DNA of 64,000 nt, taken from positions 1 through 64,000 of the forward strand of contig CANQKD010000014.1 of the NCBI GenBank assembly GCA_947624375.1, read 5' to 3'. The notes below the pieces were generated by a model, which was not told the DNA's origin, did not search any database, and saw nothing but the letters and a program-made list of their open reading frames with translations. Made by a program: the position numbers and the translations under genes. Of the stretch, positions 1-36,330 are shown piece after piece; position 1 is the stretch's first letter; each line of letters begins with the position of its first letter. This stretch comes from an uncultured Clostridia bacterium. GTDB lineage: Bacteria > Bacillota > Clostridia > Oscillospirales > Ruminococcaceae.

Positions 1-106
1 ACTTTATTCTATCAGATTTTCGTCTATCTCTCAACTGTTTTTTCTTAATTTTGTCCAATATCTATTGTAGTACTACATCAGGCGGTATGCAAAAATCAAT
101 AACCCC

Positions 107-33458: not shown

Positions 33459-33521
33459 TACGCTAAGGCACGGCTTTTTGGGCGTCAAGAAAAAGTCTTT
33501 GAAAAAAGTTGTCAAAAGCCC

Positions 33522-33550
33522 TTGAAAAAGACGTGAAAATAATATATAAT
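33522..33550 (+). promoter_or_regulatory. Promoter of the IscU-like/GGGtGRT operon
   Basis: TTGAAA (33522-33527), 17-base spacer, TATAAT (33545-33550). Confidence 0.7.
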
Positions 33551-33607
33551 ATATATGTATTGCGGAAACCTATCCGCAGCATATATCAGAAGGGAGTTTT
33601 TATCAGT

Positions 33608-34300
33608 ATGACTTACACAAGCGAAGTTGAAAGAATGTGTCCCGTAGCGCAGGGCGCAGCTCACGGCGCTGCTCCGATACCGGAGGAAGCAAAATGGGTA
33701 AAGGCTAAACAGATCACCGATATATCGGGATTTACCCACGGTATCGGTTGGTGCGCTCCCGAGCAGGGTACCTGCAAGCTCACGCTCAACGTAAAAGAGG
33801 GCGTGATACAGGAGTGCCTCGTTGAAACGATAGGCTGCTCAGGCATGACCCACTCGGCGGCAATGGCGGCAGAGATACTTCCCGGCAGAACTATCCTCGA
33901 GGCTCTTAATACAGACCTCGTGTGCGATGCTATCAATACCGCTATGAGAGAGCTGTTTTTGCAGATAGTTTACGGCCGTTCGCAGAGCGCATTTTCAGAG
34001 GGCGGACTTACCATTGGCGCAGGACTTGAAGACCTCGGAAAGGGTCTGCGTTCTCAGGTAGGTACTATGTACGGCACTTTGGCAAAAGGACCACGCTACC
34101 TCGAAATGACCGACGGTTACGTTACCAAGATAGCCCTCAACGAGGACGACGAGATAATAGGCTATAAGTTCGTGAACTTCGGAAAGATGATGGACTTCAT
34201 CAAAGCAGGCGACGACGCAAATACAGCATTTGAAAAAGCTCAGGGTCAGTACGGCAGAGTTGCAGATGCAGCTAAGCTCATAGACCCGAGAAAAGAATAA
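33608..34300 (+). CDS. IscU-like iron-sulfur scaffold family protein
   Basis: A 230-residue protein with a SufE/IscU-like (NifU N) fold. It has GFTHGIGWCAPEQGTCKLTL, VETIGCSGMTHSAAMAAEIL and a C-terminal half unique to this subgroup. The Cys in WCAPEQGTC and IGCSG are candidate cluster or zinc ligands. It is known to travel with the GGGtGRT protein, here 13 bases downstream. The frame is open from 33509, but the promoter lies inside that part, so the ATG at 33608 is used. Precise role unknown. Confidence 0.82.
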   Translation: MTYTSEVERMCPVAQGAAHGAAPIPEEAKWVKAKQITDISGFTHGIGWCAPEQGTCKLTLNVKEGVIQECLVETIGCSGMTHSAAMAAEILPGRTILEALNTDLVCDAINTAMRELFLQIVYGRSQSAFSEGGLTIGAGLEDLGKGLRSQVGTMYGTLAKGPRYLEMTDGYVTKIALNEDDEIIGYKFVNFGKMMDFIKAGDDANTAFEKAQGQYGRVADAAKLIDPRKE

Positions 34301-34313
34301 GGAGGAACGAACA

Positions 34314-35315
34314 ATGGCTTTATTTGAATCTTACGAGAGAAGAGAAAAGCAGATACTTGCCGTTTTAGAGCAGTACGGTATCAAGTCTATAGAGGAATGT
34401 GCCGACATCTGTAAAGAAAAAGGCTTCGACCCCTATACCATAGTTCAGGGCATTCAGCCTATCTGCTTTGAAAATGCTAAGTGGGCTTACACAGTAGGCT
34501 GCGCTATCGCAATAAAGAAAGGCTGCACCAAGGCAGCAGATGCCGCAGCAGCTATAGGAGAGGGACTTCAGTCTTTCTGCATACCCGGTTCTGTTGCTGA
34601 CCAGAGAAAAGTTGGTCTCGGCCACGGCAACCTCGGCAAAATGCTGCTCGAGGAGGAGACAGAGTGCTTCGCGTTCCTCGCAGGACATGAGTCTTTCGCG
34701 GCAGCTGAGGGCGCTATCGGTATTGCAGAAAAGGCTAACAAAGTTCGCCAGAAGCCGCTGAGAGTTATACTTAACGGTCTGGGTAAAGATGCAGCACAGA
34801 TAATAGCAAGAATAAACGGCTTTACATATGTTGAGACCGAGATGGATTACTACACCGGCGAGGTAAAGGAAGTTTTCCGCAAGGCTTATTCAGAGGGCCT
34901 GCGCTCCAAGGTAAACTGCTACGGCGCTAACGACGTTACCGAGGGCGTTGCTATCATGTGGAAAGAGAACGTTGACGTTTCTATAACCGGCAACTCCACC
35001 AATCCCACAAGATTCCAGCACCCCGTTGCAGGTACTTATAAGAAGGAAAGACTCGAGGCAGGCAAGAAGTATTTCTCGGTTGCTTCGGGCGGCGGCACGG
35101 GCAGAACTCTCCACCCCGATAATATGGCGGCAGGTCCTGCTTCATATGGCATGACCGATACCATGGGCAGAATGCACTCCGACGCGCAGTTCGCAGGTTC
35201 ATCGTCTGTTCCCGCCCACGTTGAAATGATGGGCCTTATCGGCATGGGCAACAACCCGATGGTCGGCGCTACCGTTGCCTGCGCAGTTGCAGTCGAAGAG
35301 GCTATGAAAGGCTAA
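34314..35315 (+). CDS. GGGtGRT protein
   Basis: A 333-residue protein of the GGGtGRT family, named for the motif in SVASGGGTGRTLHPDNMAAG (about 255-275). Other conserved stretches are GLGHGNLGKMLLEEETECFAF and a C-terminal GMGNNPMVGATVACAVAVEEAM. The family is highly conserved in anaerobes, lacks a known activity and sits beside the IscU-like gene. Gly-rich, oxidoreductase-like loops suggest nucleotide or cofactor binding, which is inference. Confidence 0.88.
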   Translation: MALFESYERREKQILAVLEQYGIKSIEECADICKEKGFDPYTIVQGIQPICFENAKWAYTVGCAIAIKKGCTKAADAAAAIGEGLQSFCIPGSVADQRKVGLGHGNLGKMLLEEETECFAFLAGHESFAAAEGAIGIAEKANKVRQKPLRVILNGLGKDAAQIIARINGFTYVETEMDYYTGEVKEVFRKAYSEGLRSKVNCYGANDVTEGVAIMWKENVDVSITGNSTNPTRFQHPVAGTYKKERLEAGKKYFSVASGGGTGRTLHPDNMAAGPASYGMTDTMGRMHSDAQFAGSSSVPAHVEMMGLIGMGNNPMVGATVACAVAVEEAMKG

Positions 35316-35574: not shown

Positions 35575-35751
35575 ATGCCGATAATATTTTTAGTTGCTGC
35601 TCTTGCGGTTTACGGAGCTGCAAATGTACACGATACGACCACCAAGAATAAACAGCCTTTCACGAGCAATGAACTGGACGATATGCTCGGCGAGATGATA
35701 GGCAAATCTAAAAGAGAGTGCAGAAAAATTCTGCGCAAGTACAGAAAGTGA
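35575..35751 (+). CDS. Small hypothetical protein (58 aa)
   Basis: A 58-residue protein with a hydrophobic N-terminus (MPIIFLVAALAVYGAANV) that could be a membrane anchor, then a polar linker and a basic helix with ELDDMLGEMIGKSKRECRKI ending in RKYRK. GGAGGTGAG precedes the ATG by five bases, and a promoter lies in range. The S-box-like leader begins 20-30 bases after its stop. No family recognised. Confidence 0.65.
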   Translation: MPIIFLVAALAVYGAANVHDTTTKNKQPFTSNELDDMLGEMIGKSKRECRKILRKYRK

Positions 35752-35770
35752 ACACTTAACAACCCGATAT

Positions 35771-35872
35771 AATTTTATACCTATAAAGAGTGCGCGAGGG
35801 ACAAGCCCTGTGACCGCACAGCAACCTGCGTTTGCAAGGTGCTAAAGCTTGTACGATGGGGAATAAGCAAAT
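35771..35872 (+). ncRNA. S-box (SAM-I)-like riboswitch aptamer
   Basis: The core matches SAM-I: P2 GTGCG (35790-35794) with CGCAC (35815-35819) enclosing GAGGGACAAGCCC, then GCAACC, P3 CCTGC/GCAAGG and the invariant AAGGTGCTAA, ending in GAATAAG as the 3' arm of P1. The P4 region is unusually short. A terminator follows directly, so an OFF switch on ligand binding is likely. The gene it controls is not a known SAM or methionine gene. Confidence 0.65.
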
Positions 35873-35874
35873 AT

Positions 35875-35904
35875 GATTCCTGTCGTAATGACGGGAATTT
35901 TTTT
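35875..35904 (+). terminator. Regulatory terminator of the S-box-like leader
   Basis: ATTCCTGTC, loop GTAAT, GACGGGAAT followed by a run of T residues. Flanking AATAAGCAAA and TTTGCTTAT can extend the stem and compete with P1 of the aptamer. Confidence 0.8.
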
Positions 35905-35935
35905 GCTTATCAATAAAATTTCAGGAGGAATATAT

Positions 35936-36280
35936 ATGACAGAAAAAAGAACTATCAAAGGCTTGAGGGCAAAATTTGAGGGCAAGATATTTGTATACCT
36001 TGCCGACGAAAACACGCGCAGAGAATTTGCCGAAGATGCCGCCGCCGAGGGCTTCACCATAGGCGGCAAGAGCCCCACACAGCGCGGCGTGGACGAGTTA
36101 ATGTCGCTGCACGAAGATACCCTTGCGTTTGTGGGCGGCATAGGCAGAATGGAATTTATGGCAAACGGCGGCAGTCGCGCAAAGGGAAAATTTCACAGAG
36201 TAGACTACGCCAAATACAAAAGCGGCGAAAAAGACTATATAATAAAAAAATTAAGTTATCAAAAGAAAGATGAAGAATAA
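35936..36280 (+). CDS. Hypothetical protein (114 aa) under the S-box-like leader
   Basis: A 114-residue soluble protein, basic at its C-terminus (KSGEKDYIIKKL and following). The N-terminal part reads TIKGLRAKFEGKIFVYLADE and the middle FVGGIGRMEFMANGG. I do not recognise a family and see no membrane segment or catalytic motif. AGGAGG precedes the ATG. It is a single gene between the riboswitch-like leader and a strong terminator. Confidence 0.8.
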   Translation: MTEKRTIKGLRAKFEGKIFVYLADENTRREFAEDAAAEGFTIGGKSPTQRGVDELMSLHEDTLAFVGGIGRMEFMANGGSRAKGKFHRVDYAKYKSGEKDYIIKKLSYQKKDEE

Positions 36281-36288
36281 CAAGATGA

Positions 36289-36330
36289 AACAACATCGGT
36301 TGCGACTTTTGCCGCAGCCGATGTTGTTTG
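36289..36330. terminator. Bidirectional terminator
   Basis: ACAACATCGG-T-TGCG, 8-base loop, CGCA-G-CCGATGTTGT. The long stem lies between the convergent 114-aa gene and the lipoprotein reductase gene. Confidence 0.8.

Follow-up and report, generated by a model that had tools for sequence, protein, structure and literature searches.

Why a leader with the core of an S-box riboswitch should precede a gene outside the usual range of targets is the question raised by a short segment of the window (the whole stretch of DNA analysed here, 64,000 nucleotides from an uncultured bacterium of the Clostridia). While SAM-I riboswitches (Rfam RF00162, clan CL00012) usually govern met, cys or SAM genes, the target in this case is a gene without a known family, phage-borne too, which encodes a 114-aa protein (35936-36280, + strand; an ORF with the Shine-Dalgarno AGGAGG 5′ of its start), the founder of what we call family A. 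The explanation that we propose, with a probability of about 0.78 for the whole, is that of a low-SAM-induced OFF switch of the SAM-I type that lacks helix P4 and is placed on a mobile single-gene cassette. The aptamer with its covarying pseudoknot, the alternative pairings, the close link with family A, the presence in phages and the patchy distribution are computed results, from which SAM as ligand, the OFF logic, mobility and function are deduced. The SAM-I class itself is known; what is new is that an S-box lacking P4 precedes an unusual, uncharacterised target family, which phages carry as well. A minimal P4-less SAM aptamer is thus found tied to conserved orphan proteins and to phages with methyltransferases and a MetK of their own, and its ligand provides a direct handle on when such orphan genes are used, making their function testable.

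The aptamer and its probable ligand

The first-pass annotation had read a SAM-I core and a following terminator from the leader, and both readings hold. The RF00162 search that it had recommended gives a covariance-model match at 35778-35862 (+ strand) with 59.9 bits (E 2.3e-11 for the whole window; gathering cutoff, 44.4 bits), and the terminator lies at 35875-35904. The same segment scores 99.1 bits with R1, a covariance model of the P4-less aptamer, and is further supported by pair counts. The genome as a whole (G000, 2.35 Mb) has two SAM-I matches, namely this element and the metK leader. The computed structure shares with SAM-I the helices P1 (35779-35784/35856-35861), P2a (35790-35794/35815-35819), P2b (35798-35800/35806-35808) and P3 (35821-35830/35833-35842), the L2/J3-4 pseudoknot, the GCAACC and GGUGC core, and a P1 3′ strand that feeds an antiterminator/terminator switch. 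The 5′ strand of the pseudoknot, CAAG in loop L2 (35802-35805), pairs with CUUG (35848-35851), and 4 nt further on come A87 and the 3′ strand of P1, all on the + strand. Unlike in SAM-I, P4 is missing.

An alignment of 29 leaders ahead of homologues of the 114-aa protein, including that of the window, keeps P1, P2a, P2b, P3 and the L2-J3/4 pseudoknot, with two-sided changes in 13 of the 26 base pairs; its covariation score and percentage paired were reached by none of 500 shuffles. All four pairs of the pseudoknot show two-sided changes and 98.3% of their cells are paired, the variants including CAAG/CUUG, UGUC/GGCA (L026) and CAGA/UCUG (L036), with a partly broken version in L009. The pseudoknot strand and A87 are separated by 4 nt in 26 leaders and by 5 nt in the other three. 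Because this spacing leaves no space for a helix in any of the 29, P4 is absent, and the aptamer is therefore termed P4-less, a variant within the SAM-I clan that departs from canonical SAM-I. The earlier description of P4 as unusually short understates this departure. The S-box ahead of metK in this genome does have a short P4, by eye. That the loss of P4 is specific to family A was considered and rejected, as P4-less leaders also precede metK at six loci (L059, L060, L064, L065, L067 and L096, by eye). The SAM-I core is thus able to retain its pseudoknot without P4. According to passages of PMC6890682, SAM-IV also lacks P4, retains PK-1 and binds SAM, and the same combination of core and PK-1 without P4 is found in the window leader and its relatives. 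RF00162, however, wins the clan competition in the Rfam scans. The P5/PK-2 subdomain of SAM-IV is not in evidence here, where the 3′ flank is a terminator region that varies among relatives.

To consider the ligand, alignment columns were mapped onto what we take to be the equivalent positions of the T. tengcongensis numbering. The SAM-contact positions checked were 14, a list drawn from passages of PMC6890682 with U88 added. Nine of them (A6, U7, G11, A12, C44, C47, G58, A87 and U88) are invariant in all 29 leaders, and the window aptamer retains every listed contact but C8, which is here an A. Among the GCAACC contacts, A45 is changed to G in L011-L013, which are three close relatives, and A46 to G in L020, and U57 is a C in L009. 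Since most contact positions do not vary, SAM is the likely ligand of the P4-less aptamer; it is from this conserved core and from S-box precedent that we infer both the ligand and the OFF logic described below. The first-pass annotation had also considered an aptamer for a different ligand, a proposal that sits badly with nine unchanged contacts and a single departure in the window. A variant specific for SAH or a SAM analogue would be in keeping with the missing P4 and with the altered A45, A46 or U57 at a few loci, but the invariance of the remaining contacts, the binding of SAM by the equally P4-less SAM-IV (PMC6890682, in part) and the occurrence of P4-less aptamers matching the same model ahead of metK genes make it very improbable.

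Promoter, terminator and Shine-Dalgarno sequence

A -10 promoter element, TATAAT, can be read directly 5′ of the aptamer (35768-35773, + strand), and transcription should therefore start at the aptamer itself. By eye the -35 element of the window is weak; the pattern TTGNNN/TTTNNN-15..19-TANNNT stands ahead of 26 of 34 family-A leaders and 16 of 20 leaders of other genes that were parsed (L018 and L043 were unparsed). Downstream, the 3′ strand of P1 forms the 5′ half of a predicted antiterminator (35854-35862, + strand), making nine contiguous pairs with 35877-35885. This last segment is the 5′ arm of an intrinsic terminator hairpin with a U tract (35875-35904, + strand; recognised from sequence and computed pairing), which can pair with the P1 3′ strand instead of forming the terminator. 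An antiterminator and a terminator arranged in this way are therefore read as an OFF switch. In the mechanism that we propose, a constitutive promoter would produce a one-gene transcript beginning with the aptamer. Bound SAM would hold P1 closed, allowing the terminator hairpin (35875-35904) to form and keeping the gene silent; under SAM shortage, the 3′ strand of P1 would instead pair with UUCCUGUCG, the terminator would be lost and the 114-aa protein would be made. A second hairpin followed by a T run, read by eye and unscored, lies at about 36290-36330 (+ strand) and is a probable terminator after the gene; the unit is therefore probably monocistronic. Across relatives, terminators were located with a crude finder that in some rows (e.g., L037, L016 and L029) settled on a poor stem or on the hairpin over the Shine-Dalgarno sequence, and its totals are no more than indicative.

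The Shine-Dalgarno sequence of the window gene (AGGAGG, 35923-35928, + strand) is not sequestered (predicted pairing, 0.07), unlike that of most relatives. A mean pairing above 0.5 is predicted in family A for 33 of 35 leaders and in the other cassettes for 20 of 21; among control genes of these loci the figure is 76 of 164. Near-identical rows (L037, L038 and L071) are retained in these counts. Left out are L014, which has no S-box, L015 and L031, for which an intact start or frame was not found, the duplicates among the viral loci, and the viral loci added by later protein searches. As family A has two exceptions and the window leader is among them, a lock on the Shine-Dalgarno sequence characterises the group but not the window locus. 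Such a lock, together with the terminator, could be taken as a double barrier that tightly silences a harmful, growth-inhibiting effector until SAM collapses, and the fact that one sensor precedes several unrelated small proteins (see below) also fits this idea. The window copy lacks the hairpin, however, PADLOC does not recognise the 114-aa protein and no toxin-like fold was found with Foldseek or VIA-align, so that a silenced effector seems unlikely.

Occurrence of the cassette in Clostridia and in phages

The locus had previously been treated as a single oddity, a description that no longer applies, as the cassette is widespread and carried by phages. The first-pass annotation had suggested looking for homologues of the protein behind other S-boxes, and the answer came from protein-first searches run without reference to the RNA. 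An S-box was found upstream at 39 of the 40 other testable homologue loci, one of the 39 being below cutoff and some of the viral rows being near-identical. The pairing of family A with the S-box is not accidental. Apart from the window's own genome, homologues occur in 4 of 296 genomes of its GTDB family, in 10 of 393 of the order sample and in 3 of 390 of the class sample (5 of 297, 11 of 394 and 4 of 391 when it is counted). Of 13 loci from named genome contigs, four of which are identical with loci of the GTDB-family search, 12 have SAM-I immediately 5′ of the gene. SAM-I scores above cutoff at 10 of the 11 order-sample places, with 30.1 bits at the eleventh (L026), and is present at all three class-sample places and in the one phage record that covers the query. 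Among 13 viral contigs found by protein-first scans (one from an earlier viral search), R1 detects the S-box in 12 of the 12 that reach far enough, the thirteenth (L130) being cut off.

The lone homologue without an S-box is that of L014 (identical to L004). At about 480-600 of L014 (oriented) there is a different upstream stretch that resembles a structured leader and has no Rfam match. A 58-aa ORF lies upstream of the S-box in the window (35575-35751), and a similar small ORF is found beside the L014/L004 homologue, which, like the window region, adjoins a GGGtGRT gene.

In the protein tree, the GTDB family of the window requires at least four label changes, and phage rows intermix with bacterial ones. 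Family A is patchy across the Clostridia and is also present in phages. Among the bacterial copies inspected, no shared gene neighbours were found, and no met, cys or transport genes were recognised by eye beside them. The window copy has no recognisable prophage around it, and plasmids gave no protein matches and two partial blastn matches to the leader. In five congeners the similarity stops after the GGGtGRT gene, leaving the cassette outside the matched stretch; a clean empty insertion site was rejected, given that similarity ends at this point in each of them. At 33509-35315 of the window, a NifU-like protein (weak match) adjoins the GGGtGRT protein (PF14057), and the region just after varies among congeners. 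Leader and gene would together form an accessory cassette that moves horizontally among Clostridia and the phages of these bacteria, outside any fixed met operon.

Ruminococcus phage NatCom_28274 (PV036439) carries a complete unit of leader and gene on the + strand, with its 3′ end facing that of a gene for a C5 cytosine methyltransferase; the neighbours are mostly on the - strand. A scan of IMG/VR with an aptamer pattern returned 14 stretches, of which, by reading, 11 precede family A, one (L072) a second family and one (L075) a 150-aa protein; L082 has no clear small gene downstream. The 12 viral loci given to Rfam, including L129 from the protein-first scan, are all above cutoff. A first viral scan with the window protein gave none among 34 candidate stretches, and one with the L023 protein none among four. 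An Erwinia phage (one phage under two accessions) matched less than half of the query with E 0.1 and was taken as a chance similarity. In the literature searched (open-licence PMC papers), no earlier account of the leader-protein pairing or of a phage SAM-I riboswitch was found.

The phage copies occupy several settings. In L076 the family-A gene lies within about 5 kb of MetK, a ParB-N6/N4 methyltransferase and a C5 methyltransferase (Pfam), and its MetK has all three Pfam domains; L074 shows the same gene order with the MetK N-domain alone. Amidoligase genes adjoin in both contigs and a terminase is near in L076. In L069 the gene lies between tail and baseplate genes, and in L073 it is elsewhere. 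The MetK of L076 (7851-8885, - strand) has three SAM-synthetase Pfam domains, yet its PHROGs family, phrog_1569, is listed there as of unknown function.

The tail-to-tail arrangement raises a different interpretation, in which low-SAM read-through would mainly silence the convergent, SAM-consuming cytosine methyltransferase by antisense. Control of this kind has been proposed for the antisense S-box of C. acetobutylicum (PMC2258182), and the annotated genes overlap by 11 bases in L037 (8287-8297), with comparable 3′ overlaps in L038 and L074. Bacterial copies, including that of the window, mostly have no such neighbour, however, and conservation is at the protein level, which leaves little room for antisense control.

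Phage morons are lone genes with their own promoter, gated by a repressor. The cassette resembles them as a lone gene with its own promoter on the strand opposite to its phage neighbours, but differs in being gated by a metabolite riboswitch and in being common outside phages too. The cyanophage manA and wcaG motif RNAs, as described in part of PMC2864571, are also phage-borne structured regulatory RNAs ahead of accessory genes, although the RNA, the ligand class and the hosts are others. The cassette adds a further case of a host-type metabolite riboswitch used by phages.

Family A and other genes behind the leader

The view of the 114-aa protein as unrecognised stands, as searches of Pfam, NCBIfam and PHROGs return no family even with E allowed to reach 1, and PADLOC returns nothing; a PDB sequence profile search gave no match at E up to 10. 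Members of A2 show isolated weak profile matches at most, and weak matches to RraB and other Pfam families, each seen in a single member, were set aside. The reading frame is supported by purifying selection, since over 108 codons the window gene and its 84%-identical relative L008 differ at 10, 7 and 37 first, second and third positions, respectively. Family members are mostly 86-131 aa long and 32-83% identical to the window protein. L010 (4001-4510, + strand) encodes a member of 170 aa with about 65 extra C-terminal residues. AlphaFold predicts a small alpha/beta fold, with a pLDDT of 82.1 (window protein) or 92.9 (phage homologue of L074). Against the PDB, Foldseek gave nothing below E 0.27 for the L074 model, with a top VIA-align Z of 2.2, and the window model had no convincing match in the PDB and BFVD (Foldseek) or by VIA-align.

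What the protein might do under low SAM can be approached through its surroundings. Because several phage copies sit in a module with DNA methyltransferases (and MetK), we tentatively favour a low-SAM response protein in a phage or host DNA-methylation conflict, at clearly less than even odds, since the surroundings with methyltransferases and MetK could be the insertion site of a single phage lineage and not a functional link, given that L069 has the gene among tail genes, L073 elsewhere, and the bacterial copies share no neighbours. Nearly as likely is a plain role in metabolism, with the protein as a small, horizontally spread accessory of methionine or SAM metabolism, e.g., one that modulates MetK or a methyltransferase, and no part in conflict. 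Its class of regulation is shared with metK, the only other SAM-I target in the genome, phage copies lie near MetK in L076 and L074, and closely similar P4-less leaders precede metK in L059, L060, L064 and L096. Against such an accessory, itself a possibility of limited strength, speak the lack of recognised met, cys or transport genes beside the bacterial copies inspected by eye, the very patchy presence and the other orphan proteins behind similar leaders, which have no recognisable common metabolic theme. The suggestion in the first-pass annotation of a role in sulfur or methyl metabolism is supported in its link to SAM and methyl groups, through the near-invariant SAM-I pairing and the phage copies beside DNA methyltransferases, with MetK in two contigs.

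R1 was run on 394 genomes of the order and 291 of the class. With a threshold of 75 bits, 28 places remain in the order sample, which precede family A (11), metK (2), other genes (12) or genes left unread (3); the gene downstream of L086 in the class sample is likewise unread. The other genes include a 140-aa family (L039, L043 and L057), a 79-83-aa family (L052 and L055) and the gene of L049, whose protein weakly matches MORN repeats; the class sample adds a 111-aa family (L090 and L091). That all cassette proteins form one family was rejected, as hhalign probabilities are 6.6 for A5 against A6 and 0.4 against A8; for A5 against A7 (111-aa proteins) the value is an equivocal 58.7. That unrelated small proteins share a leader agrees with a swapping of coding sequences behind a single sensor and, just as well, with recruitment on several occasions.

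A bolder version of this exchange, which we consider improbable, is a riboswitch-gated alarm cassette in which Clostridia and phages would swap a SAM-sensing leader with interchangeable small effectors that fire on SAM collapse, e.g., where a rival phage evades restriction by degrading or consuming SAM. Phages encode SAM-degrading enzymes, as reported in part of PMC7877911, and SAM collapse during infection is therefore a real event. If true, the RNA itself would directly read a trigger of immunity or counter-immunity.

Some further genes behind P4-less S-boxes have recognisable domains. In the order sample, the protein encoded by L062 (907-1431, - strand) carries the C-terminal domain of the RNA polymerase alpha subunit (PF03118), and that of L063 seems related to it by eye. 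An N-formylglutamate amidohydrolase is found in L089 of the class sample (Pfam) and, by eye, in L092 and L095. Genome G438 has three P4-less S-box places, one of which (L055) precedes a 79-aa protein.
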